A stretch of DNA of 64,000 bases from Ceratodon purpureus. Its lineage: Eukaryota; Streptophyta; Bryopsida; Pseudoditrichales; Ditrichaceae. Below are positions 3,105-63,829 of the stretch, in pieces (the stretch's first letter is position 1; every line of letters begins with the position of its first letter). The DNA lies in NCBI GenBank assembly GCA_014871385.1, contig CM026426.1, positions 75,926,934 to 75,990,933 on the forward strand, given 5' to 3'. Both the position numbers and the translations under genes were made by a program. Below the pieces are notes generated by a model, which worked only from the letters and a program-made list of their open reading frames with translations, made no database searches and was not told the origin of the DNA.

Positions 3105-4841
3105 CTAATGCTTGGATCTGCGCCCTACAGGTCTACGATCGGGGCGAGTTGCTTCACGGGGTACTTGGGCATTTCGTCTTGGAGGGTCTTGATTGCCGAA
3201 GATCATGGCTATGGCGGCCGCGACACCCCGATGCAGCAAGTTATGCCTGGTCCAGGATGTACGGGCATGTTGGTAAATGTCAAACACTGTTTTTCCCAAG
3301 AGTTTATTACACGCTAGGCATTGAACATTGTCTGCTTCAGGGTCAGAATATCTATTAGCCTAATCAGGGTGAGCAGCAAAGTAATCTTTGACTGCAGTGA
3401 TGGCTACTTCCAAATTTTCCTCTGTGTCACTATCCTCGCTACCCTCTCCCTCCATCTCATATTCCTCTTCCAATTTTTGCAAGGCAATTTTATGGTCGCG
3501 GAAAGATCTAGGTTGAGCAGATACCGGTGGAATGGATTGACTTGAAGCCTCATGGTCAGTTGGAGTCGGCAGCCTGGAGGAACTTGGAGCGGGTACTGAC
3601 AGGGGCGATGCTTGAGGTGTGTCTTCTGTGTCGGTGGGGACATCGGGGATGTGTACGTGGTCGGGCTCCTCAAAGCTAACTGTGGCATGGATCGCAGGGG
3701 CTTGGTGTATGGTGATGGCCGTTGAAGCAACCACGTTGGATGTGTTGTCTGGTTGTGGCTCCACGGTTTCCATGGCTTCAAGGGACATGACATCCAGATC
3801 CATGTCCCAGGTCGGCTCTGACTGTTCGAGATCCAAATCCACCATGGCATTGTCAATGCAGGTATGAAGGAAATCTTGAGCGGGTTCTGCTGATGCTGGT
3901 GGAGTCTCCCACAGCATGCGGTGGGCATTGGTGGCGATAAGTTTGGCAGCACTCTGCATCCAATTCGGCTTGTTTACTTCGAAATTAATCATGGCGTTTT
4001 CAGTCTCTATGCGTGCTTGTTGAAGACGGGCGAGCTCCTCGGTAGTCTTTGGTTCCATGGATGATGTTCCTACTCCTTGGGTGGGGGTTCTAGTGAGGGC
4101 TTTGTACTGGGCTAATGTTGCGGCGTTTTGCTGTTCCAAACGTAGGGCTATATGTATCTCTGCTAAGGGCACCTAATTAGGGTTGGCTTGTAAGACCAAA
4201 GCCTCTGGTTCAGGTGACAGTCCTTTTAGCCAATTAGTACCGGCGTGGTTTCGGATTTGGTCGGCCTTGACTCAGGTTACGCAACTGTCGACAGAGATAA
4301 CTATAATTCGTCCCTGTCTATGTATCCAAATTTGGTTTCTAGCCCAGTCGTGAATGGCGTTCATGTCTCTCAGCCATGGGCGTCTTAGGATGATGGGAAA
4401 ATTGCTGCGCTCAAACATTTCAATTATGACAAAAGTAGCTGGTGTTGTGACACCATGGGTGGTTATGGCTACTGACAATATTCCCAAGGGTGTGATTGGG
4501 GCATAATTGGCCATTCGAAGGATAAATTGTGCAGCTTTGGGACGAGGCAGTCCTAGGTTTTCTCTTAACTGATTACTCATAACATTGACGCCTAAGCCTC
4601 CATCGACTAGTACATTATTTAGTTCGTTCTGGCCAAGTTGTATCCTGATGACTGCGGCGTCAGGGTCCAGAGTCGTGGAATTGACTTCAATTACCTTGGG
4701 ATCCTTAGACAAGCTAGGTAGTGCAGCCTGTTGTAGGTATTTGTGAAATTCAAAGCTGATTTGAATCAGTTTAGACAGCGTTATTGTGACATTGGCATTA
4801 TCCATGATTTGTTGCAAACTACTAGGTTGTGGCGTTTCCAA
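3105..4841 (-). pseudogene. retropepsin-like protease plus acidic linker and Cys/His tail, with three in-frame stops
   Basis: Three open stretches (4841-4272, 4172-3360, 3299-3105) lie in the same frame, separated only by single stop codons: TGA near 4272, TAG near 4173 and TAG near 3360. The first stretch carries an aspartic-protease-like signature: a VLVDGG strand where D-S/T-G is expected, then LGLPRP, TPLG and an ILRRPWL strand in place of the usual ILGRPWL. The middle stretch is Pro/Ser/Thr-rich and acidic, without a recognisable domain. The last stretch holds CLACNK followed by YQH and TRH, spacing that fits a C2H2-like zinc finger. The DGG variant and the stops suggest an inactive copy. 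Programmed readthrough of three stops is possible but less likely. Confidence 0.6.
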
Positions 4842-6224
4842 TTCCTCTTGTAGGTCCTTCCGGATTTGATGTAGCCTTTCCTAGTGATTGGGTGGGAAGG
4901 GCTTTCTATGTTCGACAACGTGGTCGTCTGGTTTGGGATTGTTAACTGTCTAAGACCGCGTTGAAACGGCAGCGGTGGTAATGGCAGCGACCTCAGCTCC
5001 TGCTCCATGTACTTCTGTAATGGTGACTCCTCCTCTCCTTTGGGAGGATCCTTGGCCGTCCTTGGGAGGTGGGGGTGGATTGGCTGTTGTGGAGGCCCAT
5101 CTTTGGCGCAGTAATCGGCATTGCCCTCTTCAGTGATGTAAGGATCCACATTCCCAGCACCCATCGTTTTGGGTGGGCTGAAAAGCATCCACCTCGATTT
5201 TTTTGCCTGCATGGCGGCAGTGGCAGGTCTTGGACGTCTAGCGCCGTCCATGCGTTGGTTATTGTTAGCGAACCAGCACCGGCCGCCATGAATTTTCCCA
5301 CAGTTGCCACATGGAATCGGGGTAAGTCTAGCGTCTGGTCTCATAGCCGGGAGGGGCAATAGTGGTGTTTGAAGCCTGTGTAAAGCTCCTAACTTGCGAC
5401 TAATGTCATTGGCAGCGTCAAGGATGTCTTGTAATTTTTTGACACCACGAATCACAATGCCTTGTTGGATCCACGGTAATAAACCTTTTTTGAACCATTC
5501 GCATAAATAATCTTCCTCCGGTTTTTGGTTAAGTTTGTCTGATAGTTGCTTGAATCTATCATAAAACTTATCCACAGGTTTGTCCTTGCTTTCAGTAATG
5601 CTACCAAGCGCTCTGAGGATCTGAGAACTGGTTTTTAGTTTCCTGAATTTGTGTAAAAAACTAGCCTCCATATCCTCACATCTGGACAGGGGGTGTTCTG
5701 TTTCAAAGTCAATGTACCAGTTTATGTGGTTTCCTTGCAGCGTGGTCCCAAATATATTTTGTAAGTCGGCTAGGTTAGTGACTCCGTTGGTTCTTGCAAT
5801 GACTTTGAAGCGTCTGATATGCCAATCTAGGGTCGGCCGTGTCATCAAACACTGGGTAAGGTATCTTAGGCAGCTTGGTATAATGTTTGTGACTGCCTAG
5901 GCTATGTGATGTGGCTGCAGTGGGATTTTCTCTGGGTAGCGTGGCCGATTGGAATTCCTCAGCGGGGTGTTGAGATGCTTGGCCGGCTAGGTTTAGGGGT
6001 GACTCGTCCAGCGGTCCGAGAGTCCTACTACTCTGAAGGTTTTGGTATTGTACGCTTAACATTTCCAGCTTAGCATTGGTGGCATCGTTCTTGGCAGCGT
6101 GGTCAGTCATTTGATGCTTCATCCATTCTAGAAATTCTTTGGTGCCCTCAGGGTCGTCCTGTACCGTGGCGTCCTTGCCCTCATTGTTGCGGGCAGCTTC
6201 GGCTACGACTTTTCTAGGAGGCAT
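4781..6224 (-). pseudogene. Ty3-type gag polyprotein, frameshifted
   Basis: The first stretch (6224-5775, ATG start) has an MPPRK basic start and a Gln/Asn-rich helical segment, ending in the PYPVFDD region that usually precedes the capsid core. The second stretch (5848-4781) continues in another frame with the capsid-like core: an INWYIDFE helix, then SRCEDMEASFLHKFR, DKPVDKFYDRFKQL and a GLLPWIQQGI segment, matching the layout of retrotransposon gag domains. A zinc knuckle follows, with CGNCGK then H and C (C-x2-C-x3-H-x3-C), one residue shorter than the classic knuckle. One frameshift near 5840 separates the halves. The end overlaps the protease frame by about 60 bases, as in a -1 frameshift layout. 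Confidence 0.65.
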
Positions 6225-41357: not shown

Positions 41358-44300
41358 GATCATTAATTTGCACTACTATCCCCTTCTGCGATGGAACTGT
41401 GTGCCTAAATATATTTTGTCGCTAAGAGTTGCAACTGTGTCGTCAGGGGGTGGAACCCGAAGAATCCAATGAGGAGTGGGAGTCTTATATTCGTAGGGAG
41501 CACGGGGAGATAGCCGCACGGCGGATAGATGCAGAACCAGAGGCTGAAGCCGCCAATGTGGATGTTATTGAGGTCCTTCAAGAGGCGTTTGGTACTGGAG
41601 ATCAGATACGCGACGAGGCAGCTGAGCAAGCAAATGCACAAGAAGAAGAGGCTTTAGCGGATGGCGAGGGAGGTGACGGAAATGACAATGGTCAACCGCA
41701 GGAAAATCCAGAGGAAGAAGACGTCTTAGATGGTGATCAGTCTGACTATGATGGGATAGACGTAGACGACATCCCGTAGGGAGATCCTGACGCCGTGGAT
41801 CAACGAACTGCCGTAGACATGGAGAGGTTACAGGAATTTGCCAGGGTTCCTTTATTCAATGGATCTACCCTTACTACCCTAAAGGCGGTTATACTGTTAT
41901 TGAACCTCTTCAGGTCGAACAATTCGACTAACGTACAAACAGACCAATCTTTTGCATTGCTACACAGGGTACTCCTACCGCAACCCAGCACACTGCCCGA
42001 CTCGGAATATGCGGCATCCCAGCTTCTTCGGAAGATGGGACTCGAGTTTCACATCATAGATGTATGTCCAAACAATTGTGTGTTGTTCCGTGGTGTCTTT
42101 AAGGAGCATCTTCTGTGTCCTAGTTGCGGTAGCATGAAGAGAAGGAGGCACGGTAGGTCATGGGTATCGCAGAAGGTACTACGACATTTCCCCCTCATAC
42201 CCAAGCTGAATCGGATGTGGAGGAGCATACTTCTTGCAGCGTCGATGACCTGGCTAGGTCGGGAGCGCAGGGACGATGGATTGGTTCAAAGTGTAGCAGA
42301 ATTGAAGGAGATGCGCGAGATTCAGCCGAGATGGCCTAAGTTTTGCGCTGACCCACGTCGGCTTTTTCTGTCATTGGCAACGGATGGGATGAACCCATTT
42401 TCCGAGAAAAGAAGTGTCTACTCAACATGGCCGGTCACCCTAAGGAATCACAACCTACCCCCGTGGTTGTCGATAAAGAGGTATTTTATTATGCTTTCGA
42501 TCTTGATTCCAAGCCCTCGCAGTCCAACTGGGGACGACTTCGACACATTGATCGAACCATTAGTTGAAGAGCTCGAGAAGTTGTGGTTCGAAGGGATTGT
42601 CTTGCGTGACACATCAGCTTTCCGTGGCCAAGAATATTTCCATCTCAAAGTGATGCTTATATTTTGTGTCCACGATTTCCCAGCCTACGGCATGGTGGCG
42701 GGATGTGTGACTAAGGGGTATCGAGGGTGACTTTTTGCGGCCCATTCACTGTCTCAAGGAGGTCCCGTTTTTAAAAAAAAAATGTTTATGAGGACGAGGC
42801 TCGACGTCATTTACGGGACGATCATCCCCTGCGCGTTTCAACACCGACGACTTCCAAGGGAGAGTGGAGCTTCAGGCCGCACCACCTCGAGTCACAAGAG
42901 ACGAGGTTGTTGCATTTGCTGATTTCAGGCAGCGGTGGTTAGATGCTGGTGGTGTCCCAGGTGCCCCGGCTGATCCTATGCGACTAACGGGCATCAAGCA
43001 GCGTTCCATTCTTTACCGCCTTCGGTACTGGGCCGTAAGAGCCGCCATCTTATACCATGATATCTTACTAGGAACCACTTTTTATATGGCTGTTCATTCA
43101 TTTTCTCGAACCTTGGATAGACATAGCTAGTTGATAATGCCGTTATTGGTACTTTCTGTTTATACCGCGCATATACTTATTTCTTGTTCTTACATTTGGT
43201 GCCTTTTACAGAGCCTTCGTATCCGCCACAGCATCGATGTGATGCATGTGGAGAAAAACATATCCGCGTCCATTCTCGGTTTTATTCTAGGTGACAAGGA
43301 CAACCTGGCTGTCAGAAAGGACATGGAGGATGCTGGGATTCGCCATGGCCTTCATTTGCGAGCACGGCCAGGTAGAAGCGACTACTTGAAGCCTCAAGCT
43401 CCGTACTCTCTTAGACCATCTGAGACAGCTACCTTTTTACGACGTGTTGGCTCCATAAAGGTGCCTTCTATGTACAGCTCCTCGATGCTGCGGCACTTGT
43501 CCAACAGGAAACTTCACGGGCTCAAAAGCCACGATCACCATATCATCCTCCAGGATATCCTACCGGCCTGCATCAAAGGTCTACTGCATCCGTGAGCATG
43601 TGACGCCGTTATTAGGCTGGGCCATTGTTTCAAGATGGTTTGCCAGAAAACTATTGACCCTACCCAGCTTAGTTCTCTGAAGGAGTACGTAGCGGAGACC
43701 ATGTGTCTTCTCGAAGTTTGGTTTCCACCATCCTTCTTCGACATAATGCCTCATCTCCTCCTTCACCTCGTGGAAGAGTTAGAGTGGCTTGGACCAGTGC
43801 ACTCAAGATGGTGCTATGCCGCCGAACGTTACCTGTTCGTCTTCAAAAATTACGTGAGGAACAGGGCTAAACCCGAGGCCTCGATAGCAACGGGTTATAT
43901 GTATGCCGAGGCATTAGGGTTAATGGAGGAGCATCTGTCCCTATACCTGGGCTATAAGCGAATCTGGGATCCAGAAGAGGATGAGAAGAATAACGGTGAG
44001 GTGCTCGAGGGAGCACCCACGTACAGACAATTAACCGATACTGAGTTGCGCACTTGACACAAGTTCGTCATCACGAAATCCGTGCATACAGAGGGTCTTC
44101 GAAGGTTATTTAACTCGGATCCATTATACTACGATAGCACGCTTTAAATCAGTCCCATAGTTTTCAATGTTTAATGATGATGGTGTACTGTATACTTGTC
44201 TTTCTCATGCATGTCTAATTATATGGATGACTTAATCGGTCATTCAGGGAGTACGACACCGCAAGGGACGCTCATAGATCCGTATCACGGAATAGAGCGT

Positions 44301-54356: not shown

Positions 54357-56900
54357 TGGATACAGGACCTAGACTCCCTCTCACTCATCCTGTCCGGGTG
54401 AGGGCTCTTGAACTTAAACTGTGGGCAAGAGAGATGTCCTACGCAATTACAGAGCAAATACGTACATCACAAAACGCCCTCAAGATTTCTTGCCCATGTA
54501 AATTGTGTGATAGAGGATACAGGCAAGAAAAATACGTTGAGACAGTGCTGAAGCACTAAGACCCAAGGAAAATGTTTGGGCGCGACCCCAAAAACTATGG
54601 ATCTACAAAGGTACACATCCATGAATCCGATTTGTCCATTCTGATATTACGGGTCTAATTTATTGTAAAAACTTACAGTGTTCTTCTTAAAAGATAAGTT
54701 TGCCCTCTGTTCTAAGTATATTCCTCTTGGTAATGTCAGTACACTTTGTTTATCGATTATAAACAAACATGCACTAAGATATTCAAACTCTTTTACTGAA
54801 TAATAGATTATGTGTGTCTTTGTTAGTTACTGCAGTTACAAGAGTACATTGTTCTATGTTTGAGTATGCGGTCTCTTGCGAATTACTACGTGTGGGATAT
54901 CCATGTTCACAGAAAATGCTCAGCGGCATAGATTCTTGAATGTGATGCTTTCAGTGTATTACATTAAAAAACAATGTGTTAATAATTTCCAACTTGAATG
55001 CGACCTCGGTTGATATTGGCAGGGATTCCCATCCGATGAATCAGATGACGAATGGGATTCTAACACCCTTCAAGCATACGGGCGTCTGGCGATGACATCG
55101 TCCACTGATTTAATGCGGCACATGCAGAGGACGAATGCGTATTTGAAGAATGCGTGGCGAATGCTTTAGATACTTACGACGACCTCAATGCTGAGTGGTA
55201 TCACGTTGAGGAAACCGTACAAAAAGAAGACGGAGAAGATGATGTTGACGTCAATGGAAGGACATTTAGGAACGACCTCAGTCATCCGCAGCCTATACCG
55301 GCAGAGAATGATCATCACGCTGGATTAGGTGATGCTCAGCTTAACAGTGATTATGATGAAATGGATACCTCCCGCTCAACAAGAGAAAATGGTGGTGGCA
55401 ACCAGAGTCCGCGTACTGCACAAGATGCAACTACTGACTTTGGTGGACAAGCCGGATCTCAGCATACAAGTGACGGTGAAACAGATGACGATGCTTCAGA
55501 GGAAGCGGAAGACTACATGGAAGCTGACGAACCTACATGGCACAGGAATCCGGAGAATCTAGTCTCACCTGAGGAAGCCTTGATGAGAGACGCTGCCCGA
55601 ACTCCCCTTTATCCTAATGCCAAAGTCTCTTCCTTGAGTGCCGTGATTCTGTTATTAAATTCTCTGCAGATGCATGGGGCATCTTCAATGCTGATAAATG
55701 AAATATTCACTCTGCTTTCAAAGGTTATACTTCCAGAGGTGAATAATCTATCCACGTCGGAATATGAGGCCTCCAGAACGCTGAAAAAGCTTGGACTCAA
55801 CTATGAAATAATTGACGTTTGCCCCAACCAATGTCTACTGTTTAGGGGAGACGAATATGCAGATATGGAAAACTGCCCGAAGTGCGGGGCTGCAAGGCGG
55901 AGGAGATGCGGGGAGACGAATATGCAGATATGGAAAACTGCCCGAAGTGCGGGGCTGCAAGGCGGAGGAGATGCGGCAAGAGCATGATTCCTCGCAGAGT
56001 ACTGCAGTATTTTCCTTTGATTCCCCGGCTTATCCGTTTGTACAAGAATCCAATACTTGCTCAGGCCATGACATACGCTGCAACTCACAAGAGCCTCGAC
56101 AACAAAATGAGAAGTGTTGCACATTCCGAGGTGTGGAGATTTAAAGACACAGAGTACCCTTGGTTTGCAGAAGATCCCAGGAACTTGAGATTAGCATTGG
56201 CAACAGATGGCATCAATCCTTTTTCTGAAAAGAGAAGCACTTATTCAATATGGCCGGTACTTCTTTTAAACTTTAATGTACTTGCACCGTGGTTGACATT
56301 AAAACGCTTCTTTGTCATGTTGACACTCATTATTCCAGGTAAAAAATCCGTAGCTAGTGAATACTTTGACATGTATTTAGAACCATTGCTAGAAGAAATA
56401 AGATTGCTTTGGGAGTAGGAGTCTTGATCAGAGATGCTTCTAGAGATTTTGCTAACTCATTCCACTACCTCCAAGCAGTTCTCATGTTTACAATTCACGA
56501 TTACCCTGCATATGGTATTGTCTCGGGTCTTGTCACAAAAGGTTGTGTATGTTGTGGACCCAATAACTTCTGTAGAAGGTCAAAGTTCTTAGGTAAGAAT
56601 GTTTGGGACAATCAGCATAGAATGTATCTACCTATGTCCCATTATCTGAGAGAAAATGAGAATCAATTTAGAGGCCAGAAAGAGCATAGAGTTGCTCCAC
56701 CACCTATGATTGGAGAACAGACAAAAATGTGCGGTATGTAACGAGAGCGCTGGCTACGTGAAGGGAGGGTGCGTGGCGCGGAGAATGATCCCGTGCGAAG
56801 GCACGGGGTGAAGTGGCTCAGTGCCCTATTCACTCTCCCGTACTGGGAGGTGAGATATTGTCCACCTTCTTATGGTTCAGAGTGCAGATTCTACATTTGT
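54357..56900 (+). pseudogene. CACTA transposase gene, copy 2, diverged and truncated
   Basis: Exon 1 (54357 to about 54610, ATG after a TACTGCAG acceptor) has the CPCKLC finger and a TAA after KH. Exon 2 starts after TTGGCAG near 55020: acidic linker with a frameshift near 55100, then NAKVSSLSAVILLLNSL, EIIDVCPNQCLLFRG and CPKCGAARRRR. A 65-bp tandem duplication at 55845 shifts the frame. From 55910 it resumes with LATDGINPFSEKR, YSIWPV, LTLIIPGKKS, shifts again near 56410, and reads IHDYPAYGI, VTKGCVCCGP and a final LFTLPYWE near 56850. The second half (ID.MH.EKN, DUF4218, DUF4216) is missing. It belongs to a different subfamily from copy 1 by its many substitutions. Confidence 0.85.
55845..55974 (+). 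repeat. 65-bp tandem duplication in the transposase zinc motif
   Basis: GGGGAGACGAATATGC begins at 55845 and 55910; the two copies look identical. 65 is not a multiple of three, so the reading frame is lost. Confidence 0.93.
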
Positions 56901-58448
56901 GTAATTAATGTAGAGAACAAACTCAATTCTGACAGTCACATAATAAGTCCACAGATTTGTTCCGCTTTGGAAGTTGAACTTCAGAGTTCACTGTTTATTT
57001 AGTTTAAACTTCATGCGTCATTCCTCTGACGACAGTGCTTTCCTATGACTGTTTGGCCACAGCATTAGTTCCTTATCTAAACGACAATGTATTGTCCAGT
57101 GCGTTTTTAGTGATGTTACAGACCGATGTTATTCTTTGGAGGATGCCATTATTTGTATGTCGATTATACATTTGACTTCGCAAAAATCTGCTTTGTTGCC
57201 TACTTCAGGTTATTACCGAATACAATCGCTTGTAGTTTATGGTTCATATTGTGTGATGCCTAATACAAGTGCCAGTCACCGTAGAGGACTTTGTACACCT
57301 TCTCTGTGAAGAAGTGGAGGCAGAGTACCGTCGTCTCATTTTACATTGACTGTCAATCTCAAGTGTTTCATTACCCTAGGCTTATTGATTCCATAGTTTA
57401 TATAACGGTTCTAAATTTTCTGGATTCCTGCTTCTCTTATGAAAGGCCAATGAATATTTGTACATGAGGACAGCTCTTCGGAGTGGGTCGTTTAGGGTGT
57501 GGGCTGGCCTATAAAGCGTCAGAATATGAGTCTGGTATGACCCCAGGACCAGAGATGTCTGGCGACGAAAACCAACATCCGTAAGAAGAGGGATGAAACA
57601 TTGTTAGTCCCAAGAAGTACAAATACAGTATGATGACTGCGATGAACTATTCAAGGTCGAAAAATACATCATCCAGTATTTTCTACGGTATAGTGTATAC
57701 TACGGGTATGGTACAAAAGTCATTGCAGTCACATTCATATGGAACTCACACACAAATACCCAATCACATCGAACCACTGGCAAGATTGCCACGACATGAT
57801 AACAGTGGGGAACTAGAGCCAGATCGACGTTACGGAAAATGGGAAATCTAGTAGCGACTCATTGCCCTAGGGGTCCGGTTTCTTTTCAATTAAAAAAAAA
57901 AAGAGAAACAAATCAATGTTAATGCAAAGAAGGCAACAGGGGGAATGCCAAGGGAACCAGGGGTCCGGTTTAGCGTAGACAGTTGCTCAATCGAGCCTCT
58001 GGAGGACGATAATTTGACAGAATTAATCGCAGCGCCAAAAGAAAACGAAGCCCGAGCACAACCATGCAGCAGCATACATAATCCGTACTAAAAGGCAGTC
58101 AGTTGGAAAAATTGGAAGGCTTTGTAGACCACGGCATTAAAAGCTGAAACCAGATAACATCTACGCCATTGCAAGCCCCTGACGAAATTTGCTGAAACAA
58201 CTCACATGGAAGGTTCACCAAGTTACAGATTAAGAATGTAATAGAGATAAGATAATGTGAATCCAATCACCACCATCGAAAACCACCATTGAAAACCCGA
58301 GAATCAGAGTTCAATAATAGTGACTATAAATTCAAGATTTCAAAAATCATAGGTGATTTTTGAAGATAACTGAAAAAAAGACTGCAGTATTAACAATAAA
58401 ATTGAGACTGAAGAACACAAATTAACAGACTGGATATCAAATGTCACC

Positions 58449-59768: not shown

Positions 59769-61126
59769 GTACAGCATCTAAGAACTTCGAAATGATTTCT
59801 AAGTTCTGGGCAGACATAGTGAGGGATAGTGAGTAACTTGACCACTGCTACGGTGAGCACTGAAGGAATACCTTGGACATCCAGTAGTACCATATGCATT
59901 TGAGAATAGTAAGGCTGGTATGTTATTACAATAGCACAAAGATACATAAATGGTGATTCCATAGGAAATCCCTCAGTGTTGATCCTAAGACTATACTAAA
60001 TACATGCTGGCTATGATCACAGCTAGTGAATTGGACATGCGATGTTTAAATTAGCTAGCCATGCCAAACGAACTCTCACTCAACGCAGGATGCGCGTTAG
60101 TGTTGGAGTACGTCCCGTCGAGGTCTTGTAAGTGCTGTTAAAGTGACATGATCCGATTATCCTCCCTCCCAATGTCAGCGCTAGGTTCAACAGAGTCGTC
60201 AGATAGGAACATATAAATGCCATTGCGTCCTCCTCAAGTGCAAAAACATGGCGGCCATTGAGCTCACATGCCTGCACCGATGAACCTGTATAGAACAATA
60301 TATTGTTAGAGTTCTTCCCAGCTAAAAGGAACATTAAGTATTACATCAATGACATCATTTCGCTTACCTACTGCCCTTGTCAAGTCGAGAACGGCACTAC
60401 CCTTTCCGATGCAGATTTCTATCATGGATTCCATGAACGTAGGGGCCTTTTGTTTTGAACTACGGTATAATAATGTCTCCTTACAGCGCAGCAAATTGTC
60501 GTCAGTTACAACATTCTCGAGAACGTTGGACGATTCAGCACTCCAGTCCATGACCTTACTAGCGAATTCGTAAAATCGAAATTTGGTCTGGCTCATACAT
60601 TTCCTTCTAAGAACCTTAGCTTTAAAAAGTCGCTTCTGTGGACACAAGTCAGAGTAGGCCTCTTAGTCATGTTCAAAGTGCATCACTCACGTTTCGGTGG
60701 ACGATTAAAGAAGGGGTGGAGCAAATGAAGGGAAAAAATATTACCCAAGTAGGAAAAACGGTCTGTGATTTACAACGTAGAATGTCCTCAAACACTCCCA
60801 ATCATTAATCCAACTCCCCGACATGAGCAAAGGGTGCTCCTCAGCGGGAAGAAAGAAAAGAATTACACCGGAATCCGCCAAAACAGCTTCTGCAATGTGA
60901 AATATTGCCGGGAACGTTGTCTTCTTAAGCATATTCCAAACCGGCACCTTCGATTCATGCGGCAATGCCCCATTATCGTATCCAGGAACCTTGCTATTGT
61001 CAGGAGTGTCACAAATTATCAGGTCCACGCAATTCCTACTTGCAACATTGTCATGCTGCCGAAGCCTCCCACCGTTAATCTGTCACAAGAACACAACTTT
61101 TAAGGATCTACACCGAATTCATTACC

Positions 61127-61140
61127 TGGCGCCGGCGCCA
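61127..61140. repeat. TGGCGC palindrome 3
   Basis: TGGCGCCGGCGCCA, perfect; just upstream of the 61079 exon, in its preceding intron. Confidence 0.8.
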
Positions 61141-61269
61141 TGACCAAGTACAAAAGCGGGATACCATATATAAATACACGATATGGTAGTTCGTTATCTC
61201 CCCTAGAAGCACCGAACATTGACAGGTAAGAGCTGATGCCAAAACAAGGATATACTACATATGACCAGG

Positions 61270-61283
61270 TGGCGCCGGCGCCA
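61270..61283. repeat. TGGCGC palindrome 4
   Basis: TGGCGCCGGCGCCA, identical to palindrome 3, 143 bases away in the same intron. Confidence 0.8.
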
Positions 61284-61892
61284 AGAGTACAAAATACATG
61301 GAAGAATTCGGCCAAAATTAAGTGCATTGATCAAAGGACCAGACAAAGTCGACAATCGCATAGTCTCTCAGTTCTTTGAGTTACTAAAAATGAACATTAA
61401 GCAAGGAACATCTAATACAAACTGTTAAAAATACGTGCTTAAGCATCCCCATGTTCATGGTACCGGGACTCGGTCCATTCCACCGCACTGGACTACCTCT
61501 CACTGGACTCCACAGGCAAAAACAAAGCATAACATATATAGATGATAAACATGAAATCAGAGGAGTGTTGAACCAAGATCGAGAGTTTGAAAAAGAAGCT
61601 GCATGTCCAAGATTGATGTGGCGTGGGCGTCGTATGCCGAGTAGAAGAATTCTTGGGATCTAATCAACAATCCCCAATAGGAAGGCAGAAGTACAACCGC
61701 ATACCATCTAATATTAACGCACTCAAATTGCAAATGACATAACTAGGTCTCAAAACTGAATAACTAAGATGCGAATTGACGCTCGGAAGTTCAAGAAAAA
61801 TTATGAGCATCAGTGCAGCTCATTCTAACACCAAGGTGAAGCATGCCGAGGCAATGCCAAAGACTAGTAAATCCCCTACCAATGCAGCGAGA

Positions 61893-61906
61893 TGACGCCG
61901 GCGCCA
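61893..61906. repeat. TGGCGC palindrome 5
   Basis: TGACGCCGGCGCCA, one mismatch; near the 5' end of the same intron. Confidence 0.75.
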
Positions 61907-63829
61907 CTCAACAGTTCAGATGACAATCGATTCGATACGCAGCGCAAGGACTCTCTGAACAGAAAAATATCAAGTCAATCATAAAGAACTTCGGACATAT
62001 GAATACCTGCTTGATGGCGGCCAGAAAAGTCCCAAAAACAAAACGATCGATGCCTTCAAGCAAACTCTCGAAAGCAATGTTAATAGTCCGTTCCACTGGG
62101 GCATCCACGCCTTCTATAGGCAGAGCCGAGAATTTCAGATGATGCGATTCATCTGTTCCCGCCTTGGATATCTTCCTTAGCGACCTGGATGACATTTTTT
62201 TTGGGATGGAGGCAGAGGACGAAGGCTTTGACGCGTTACTATCCCTCAATGTGTCCTCAGGTCCCTTAATTGGCCTCGGGCGCAGATCATGGAATAGTTG
62301 AGTGGGTGGTTGCTTGTTGCCTTTAGTAGCACTCACAAGGGTTGTATCCTGGTCTTCCTCGGAACCGAGTCTCATCGAATTCACATCCCGGACTACGTCC
62401 GCAACAATAGCATCTGATTGGTCACCTGGCGGTTGCTGAGGAAGATGCGCCAGTCCAGCTTTGGCAGCAATAAGGACCTGCAGCTCAGTAAACAGCATTG
62501 GTCCGTAATGAGTGTCGAGCACATTGTTAGTAATAATCTCACACTTGTTTATTGGAACGTAAACTCTTTCCAACGAACCGGATATGGCAGAAAGTAGTGT
62601 AGAGGATAGTCTATAAGAAGTACCATCTACCGTTTCAGCTCCTCCATTCCAATCACCTTCCAAATTATCCGTTCCGATCTGCTCCACGATTCGATCAAGG
62701 GTTGAATCAAGAGCCAAAGCCTTCTCGGAGAGCGGGGCAGATTTTACGGCTTCAATCTCCCGTTCGACTCGTTCAAATATCTCCCTGTCACTTGAATCAA
62801 GGAAGTACCGTTCTTGCCCACCACTCTCTATGTACCAACTGAGGTACTTTAGATGAGGCGGACTTTATTCGAAAACATCGAACACGCTCGGCTTTGTCAA
62901 AATCCAGTTTAGAAAAATAGGAAACTTGCTAATGTTGCCATCTTCTTTAGGAATAAGAATGTGTGCCTCAATAATCAAGCGGACAAATCTCATAACAAAC
63001 CGACGAACTGCCATCTCTCCTTTTGCAAATGTCGTTTGGTCCTTCCAGCATTTATCCCTCACGGGTCCACTTTCACCAGCAAAGATTTCCGGAAAATACT
63101 TCTCAAACCCAAACGACATCACGTGATCAAAGTACTCGTCGAACAAAGGCTTCACCACCTCAGGCCGCAAAATTCCGATCCCCTTCTCACCTTTTGATTT
63201 CCCAGATAATTCAATCACCAACTCAAAGGCCCTCGTACCCATCTGATGAAAATAATACGAAACTATCAATTAATGTCGGAACTCGCAAGAACAAAATTCT
63301 CTGGCAAATGAAGTCAAATTACAAAACGAAATGAATGTGCACTTCAAGCGATGGAAGTAGCAATGACTGCAGGAGAAGAACTGCAAATCAGTCCACGAGA
63401 TGTAAGGCTTTAACCCATACTTACATGCTCCCACCACGCACGGCGGTTTAGCCATTTCTGAAATGCAGCTCTAGTAAAATCAAGGTCGGGAAAGTGATAC
63501 TTTAGCTTCAATTCGCTAGAGCTATTCCACAATTTTAGAATCCTTTTAATGTCCACCCCTTGCACACCTACAAGTATGCCAAGATTGTCCACTGTCATCG
63601 CCCCGGCCTTTTTCGAATTTGCGCGTGTGTGGATATCGAGTTCCTCAATAAGGTGGGGTTGGTACTTCGGGTTGCAGAGTCTAAATATCTTCTTCATGTA
63701 GTCGGTCTTCTCTTTTCTACAGGACTGAGCCGCGTCATATTTTGCCTCCTCAATCATTGCCGCGGATGGAATTGGGAATTCGTCCTTCAGCGCCTTGACT
63801 GCTTCACGCTCTGCGAGTATGATATCGCG

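Follow-up and report, generated by a model that had tools for sequence, protein, structure and literature searches.

The closest described counterparts of the gene discussed here are the beta-class amino-methyltransferases of bacteria (CcrM, RsrI, and DpnA; Pfam family N6_N4_Mtase, PF01555) and, among eukaryotes, bdelloid N4CMT, which is described as an allelic pair of host genes with a catalytic SPPY motif and a chromodomain (PMC8885841), and Marchantia MpDN4MT1a/b, described as sperm-specific host enzymes with no further domain at either end (PMC8566409, PMC8885841). Mobile elements with such genes have been described as retrotransposons carrying DNA methyltransferases (DNMTs) in dinoflagellates and charophytes and as DIRS elements with adenine methyltransferases (PMC5890265). 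The stretch analysed here (hereafter the window) comprises 64,000 nucleotides of the moss Ceratodon purpureus (positions 75926934-75990933 of contig CM026426.1, here C6), and its minus strand holds a decayed, intron-containing gene whose identity is very probably that of a methyltransferase fold carried by a transposon with inverted termini. The family to which it belongs resembles the bacterial enzymes in the order of motifs (IV, then I), in the loop that binds S-adenosylmethionine (AdoMet), and in profile and alignment matches, but differs from them in reading DTPDN rather than (D/S/N)PP(Y/F/W)N, in having at least seven exons and a long N-terminal extension, and in being mobile and multicopy. 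With bdelloid N4CMT it shares a bacterial-type PF01555 domain in a eukaryote, introns, and a permuted motif order, whereas N4CMT, as that paper presents it (PMC8885841), lacks the mobility, the multiple copies, and the DTPD of the moss gene; no chromodomain was found in Pfam scans of the moss family, in which exon 2 was represented by the window copy only. The likeness to the Marchantia genes is that of a bacterial-type amino-methyltransferase in a bryophyte (PMC8566409, PMC8885841), and the likeness to the retrotransposons is that of a transposon-borne DNA methyltransferase under purifying selection, although the elements studied in that source are retrotransposons with C5-cytosine enzymes (PMC5890265), while the moss element has inverted termini and a beta-class amino-methyltransferase fold. 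As far as these accounts describe them, neither N4CMT, nor MpDN4MT1, nor the methyltransferase retrotransposons combine inverted termini, a beta-class fold, and DTPD.

The methyltransferase fold is recognized in relatives of the window copy elsewhere in the genome (loci numbered with L below). Exons 3-5 of L050 match PF01555 at 33.9 bits (cut-off 26.7), and all seven members of a family alignment (A1) match it at expectation values (E) up to 10, the best being 4e-8; the first A1 member (22.2 bits) and the corresponding piece of a distant lineage (22 bits) score below the cut-off. A profile built from A1 finds CcrM in the PDB with E 5e-5 over positions 17-238, with DTPDN aligned on DPPYN, and hhalign against two phage methyltransferases gives 94.4% probability (E 8.5e-8, 200 columns); in both comparisons motif IV precedes the AdoMet motif I. 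A genome search with PF01555 yielded 33 places over the cut-off among the best 150 of 772 candidates, not all of them shown to belong to the family. No MT-A70 match appeared in Pfam scans of the window pieces, the L050 exons, or the A1 members, and the predicted structure of exon 3 alone was too low in confidence for use (mean predicted local distance difference test score, pLDDT, 32.7). On the PF01555, CcrM, and phage matches, the C-terminus is assigned to the beta-class amino-methyltransferase fold. This agrees with a preliminary description made from the letters of the window alone, the peptides of which (VDLIICDTPDN, ADSGVILFFLP, and KAPTFMESM...VLDLTRAVG|SSVQA...GRHVFALEEDA) were all found on the minus strand. 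Because the catalytic motif (D/N/S)PP(Y/F/W) is not found in it, the family is classed here as a methyltransferase fold and not as a proven enzyme.

The departure at motif IV had been taken, in the preliminary description, as a sign that the copy is dead. Instead, among 32 loci (L001-L030, L049, and L050) the motif reads DTPD in 30, DTPE in L012, and NTPD in L014, the latter two being copies with stops, and in none does it read DPPW. All four threonine codons, all four proline codons, and both aspartate codons are used across these loci, and such variation in codons under constant amino acids indicates that the amino acids of DTPD are selected. The ratio of nonsynonymous to synonymous change (omega), for the pairs L031-L034 and L031-L033 respectively, is 0.06 and 0.06 in exon 3, 0.02 and 0.04 in exon 4, and 0.07 and 0.13 in exon 5; over the same two pairs it is 0.00-0.12 in the three exons that precede the linker (X0-E1) and 0.24-0.25 in the linker, exon 2. 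These were the two pairs with finite synonymous divergence (dS) in every exon, with dS reaching 2.48, near saturation, in one exon; the other five pairs were saturated in most exons. Judged from these codon comparisons, DTPD is the family's own motif, kept by purifying selection, and its reading as decay is ruled out by the 30 copies, the varied codons, and the low omega of exon 3. In the distant lineage the corresponding position reads QVPDNSPVPG (copies L044 and L047).

Within the window, positions 60051-63829 of the minus strand hold five of at least seven coding exons. The parts of the gene and the adjoining end of its element are as follows (window positions, unless a contig is named).

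57466..57501, minus strand: outer end of the element, CACACCCTAAACGACCCACTCCGAAGA then GCTGTCCTC, followed by unrelated flank; the boundary is sharp and at the same bases in relatives
60051..60285, minus strand: last exon, exon 5, with the remainder of the AdoMet loop, SSVQACELNGRHVFALEEDA; decayed
60286..60367, minus strand: phase-1 intron splitting the glycine loop of motif I, GTAAGC...TATACAG; junction common to relatives
60368..60635, minus strand: exon 4, containing the conserved KAPxFME and, from 60392, the first half of motif I (VLDLTRAVG)
60745..61079, minus strand: exon 3, with the motif IV counterpart DTPDN at 60996-61010
62007..63242, minus strand: exon 2, fast-evolving linker region, with a stop (TAA) at 62865-62867
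63425..63829, minus strand: exon 1 of the preliminary description, equivalent to the third coding exon of relatives
C6:75991769-75992382: first of two further upstream exons, about 840-1450 bases beyond the window end

The exon order and the two upstream exons are common to the 15 lineage relatives fetched at 10 kb, which excludes chance as the source of the gene structure. In a loose junction test, which required an AG or GT no more than a few bases from the edge of the aligned exon, the acceptors of exons 1, 2, 4, and 5 were present in every copy with an alignable exon start (15 or 16 copies), and that of exon 3 in 15 of 16, its loss in L041 being the only lost site; the donor of exon 4 scored zero in 16, an artefact that arises because the junction falls inside the last codon (G|GT...). 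The gene thus has at least seven exons, and its aligned parts amount to ~1,070-1,110 residues in relatives that are complete and free of stops. The frame-keeping intron proposed for the glycine loop holds, its 60368/60285 junction being backed by paralogues. An intron-containing gene was likewise correctly recognized, while the set of five exons was too small by at least two upstream, and some exon ends had to be moved: exon 3 ends at 60745, and exon 5 as first drawn is frame-shifted after ~60217, the frame of the relatives ending at 60051. One intron of the gene contains two occurrences of a palindromic word, GGCGCCGGCGCC (61128-61139 and 61271-61282), and a shorter variant lies nearby at 61896-61905.

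The long N-terminal region contains the motifs IPLCR and DGNHR, invariant in six of six aligned sequences from two lineages. Its linkage to the methyltransferase fold, suggested in the preliminary description, extends well past the window copy: 33 of 45 distant matches to the N-terminal exon are followed on the same strand, at 3.2-5.7 kb, by a PF01555 exon, against none in control orientations (all 45 distant N-terminal rows compared with the first 48 of the 146 PF01555 rows listed), and a fusion general to the family is well supported. The best profile matches of the N-terminal region itself are weak (DUF1015, E 0.031; phrog_1033, a ParB-like family, E 0.1), and DGxHR, a mark of the ParB/sulfiredoxin fold, serves as a lead only. 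A ParB identity was not confirmed, as the region gave no Pfam ParB match, no relevant hit in the profile search of the PDB, and no hhalign match to P1 ParB; nor was anything like it found among phage sequences.

The evidence for an element comes from the boundaries of the copies. Aligned in pairs, near-identical copies match up to a point 2-3 kb downstream of the gene, where the alignment breaks off abruptly and the flanks become unrelated, and the last bases of the element are alike across three subfamilies; four copies (L040-L043) share 99.0-99.8% identity over 8.7-9.1 kb on four chromosomes. A 27-base terminal pattern occurs at 103 places in the genome at up to 3 mismatches (reversed control, 0) and lies downstream of the gene in 13 of the 15 closest copies. 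Among the 100 of these 103 places that were listed, an inverted partner lies upstream of the gene in 10 of the 13 copies with a right end, giving spans of 22.5-53.9 kb where 0.11 such partners would be expected. The gene very probably adjoins one inverted terminus of a giant DNA transposon family, and the suggestion that it had multiplied as part of a transposon is borne out by the termini and the many copies of exon 3, with an element larger than had been guessed. The element of the window copy ends at 57466, and its rightward extent passes the window edge. The same termini also form eight short inward pairs (0.9-3.0 kb) against two outward pairs, and the inward pairs look like small non-autonomous derivatives. 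The last 21 bases of the L040 lineage end, searched at 3 mismatches, occur at 66 places in the genome (reversed control, 3), among them left ends of elements of the window's lineage (e.g., C1:718394, C3:5674549, C4:13024817, C5:13515021, and C6:51646126).

Several observations weigh against a methyltransferase fold within a transposon. A methyltransferase profile was the check named in the preliminary description, and the match is there in intact relatives but not in the window's own broken pieces: the six pieces have none in the Pfam scan, and joined exons 4 and 5 reach only E 0.21, which is not significant. Of the 146 PF01555 matches listed, all but three are confined to the C-terminal part of the profile. 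The aromatic residue is missing from motif IV, as is the first Asp in the distant lineage, which speaks against ordinary catalysis. With 100 of 103 terminal places listed, no inverted partner lies within 60 kb of the window copy, of C6:21950721, or of C11:16117180, and the end of the L040 lineage has none near its own copies. No transposase was found in searches with Plavaka, KDZ, and Transposase_21 profiles. As classes for the element, Plavaka (53 matches in the genome, none inside the ten paired intervals) and KDZ (no match in this genome or in any control genome) were both set aside, and among the best 150 of 1940 Transposase_21 candidates none lies inside the paired intervals. Elsewhere in the window, an open frame at 41780-42730 (plus strand) matches Transposase_21 (tnp2, CACTA type) with E 4.7e-43; a second frame, at 55109-55987 (plus strand), resembles by eye the N-terminal part of the first, has no Pfam match, and contains a perfect 65-base tandem duplication (55845-55976).

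Two accounts that dispense with an element of this kind were considered alongside the transposon reading. An ordinary host gene family, caught by chance in repeats and amplified by segmental duplication rather than as an element of its own, would suit the multi-exon structure, which is more typical of host genes, and the transposase searches that found none. It is made very unlikely by copies on several chromosomes that are nearly identical and end at the same sharp boundaries while their flanks differ, by inverted termini with similar spacing, and by eight short inward terminal pairs that leave no room for the gene (against two outward). Giant viruses are known to have inserted into some eukaryotic genomes, and the span of 22-54 kb together with the methyltransferase content could be read as the remnants of such an integrated virus. 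The absence of a relative in IMG/VR in two pattern-based alignment scans, introns throughout, and short inverted termini with small derivatives all argue against a viral source, and it is rated the least probable of the readings considered.

Within the transposon reading, the question is how an intact protein would act. It may bind AdoMet and DNA, and during transposition it might mark or handle the DNA of the element that carries it: the altered motif IV could serve to methylate an exocyclic amino group, or the fold could act as a DNA-binding module that responds to AdoMet. Under the first option the protein would be an active DNA amino-methyltransferase with a relaxed motif IV, in which DTPDN works as DPPYN and the transposon methylates its own DNA (N6-methyladenine, 6mA, or N4-methylcytosine, 4mC), thereby aiding transposition or escape from host silencing. 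This option, which we hold with confidence a shade below even, draws on the first Asp, the second Pro, and the Asn kept in nearly all copies, on the strong constraint that both motif IV and exons 3 and 4 show, and on two phage methyltransferases that read DLPY, so that position 2 is not always Pro. The aromatic residue of motif IV stacks on the flipped base, however, and its position is occupied by Asp in 31 of 32 copies and by Glu in the other, the distant lineage reads QVPD, and the change of SPPY to APPA abolished activity in bdelloid N4CMT (PMC8885841). True base methylation by intact copies is nearly as probable as not. Under the second option a pseudo-methyltransferase would bind AdoMet and DNA without methylating, serving the transposition complex in DNA recognition or assembly, or acting as a repressor. 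Motif I is conserved, motif IV departs in a similar manner in the main lineage and in the distant one (which keeps PDN and not the first Asp), and the N-terminal exons are under similar constraint; on the other side, the Asp retained in the main lineage would be needless, and DNA binding is a putative role. This second option is a considerable possibility that falls somewhat short of probable.

More tentatively still, and with more doubt than confidence, these copies may represent a class of giant plant DNA transposons, 22-54 kb in size, with a hallmark gene that joins a DGNHR N-terminal domain to an amino-methyltransferase fold with a rebuilt active site (DTPDN). The element itself would use this protein either in a new kind of methyl-transfer chemistry or to handle DNA under the control of AdoMet, and there would be possibly hundreds of copies in the moss genome when the distant lineages are included. 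The transposons with DNA methyltransferases described in PMC5890265 are retrotransposons. If the transposon reading is true, a DNA transposon tens of kb long whose amino-methyltransferase fold is both altered and selected would connect mobile elements with DNA marks other than 5-methylcytosine in land plants, it could be tested directly whether elements of this kind write 6mA or 4mC or read them, and PF01555 matches in bryophytes would have to be viewed with the warning that they can be transposon genes and not host enzymes.

Acquisition of the methyltransferase from bacteria, also proposed in the preliminary description, is plausible, and no donor came to light: pattern-based scans found no relative in GTDB, as in IMG/VR. 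Among phages, the matches shown (12 of 251 records) have 21.7-26.3% identity and are methyltransferases of a generic kind, and 12 plasmid records gave partial matches. No published description of the gene family was found in a literature search that missed many subscription journals.

The family is large. A search of the genome with exon 3 scored the best 150 of 1102 first-look candidates, of which 83, picked by hand and including the window copy, are near full length (at least 96 of 112 residues, 51-100% identity); 40 of these lie on C6 and 43 elsewhere, and a stop falls within the exon in seven, six of them on C6. Sixteen copies, several near-identical to one another, were compared across the gene, and 13 have no stop in any aligned exon, including L049, with split exons, and L041, with the lost splice site. 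The distant lineage consists of open frames of 447 residues (28 rows of the exon-3 matches listed); its members (L044-L048 and others), with an upstream DGNHR frame in the copies read, adjoin GA-rich repeats and masked stretches. Just one of the PF01555 matches listed spans the profile almost entirely (2-218) without a break; it lies at G000:C8:9595672-9596436 (minus strand), with an N-terminal exon match 3.5 kb upstream and one TGA inside.

The window copy is dead, as the preliminary description held, through damage other than its DTPD. Compared with L033 it carries the stop TAA at 62865-62867 in exon 2 that had already been noticed; exon 3 has lost a single base near its 3' end relative to relatives, and exon 5 another near 60217, with a TAA at 60138-60140 in the relatives' frame. 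Its first upstream exon appears as two overlapping matches (C6:75991769-75992194 and 75992173-75992382), which suggests a frameshift there. Two stops, two single-base losses, and an exon split beyond the window thus mark this copy as a dead relic, lying on an apparent sex chromosome. C6 is 110.5 Mb long, or 30% of an assembly of 362.5 Mb in 151 contigs, and eleven other large contigs with listed lengths measure 16.7-29.0 Mb; the Ceratodon purpureus genome is given as 358 or 349.5 Mb, with sex chromosomes making up ~30% of it, in a review (PMC13120521). The window is therefore probably part of a sex chromosome.

Other features of the copies and of the window were also recorded. A second open frame of ~210 residues, without a Pfam or PHROG match, lies downstream of the gene in L040 (7443-8024) and L050 (3064-2432) and also in L038, L039, L041-L043, and L049, at 54-59% identity to that of L050; neither the window nor the 10-kb loci of the window's subfamily yielded this frame. 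At 4781-5896 (minus strand) the window contains a Ty3-type gag (Retrotrans_gag, E 1.9e-7).

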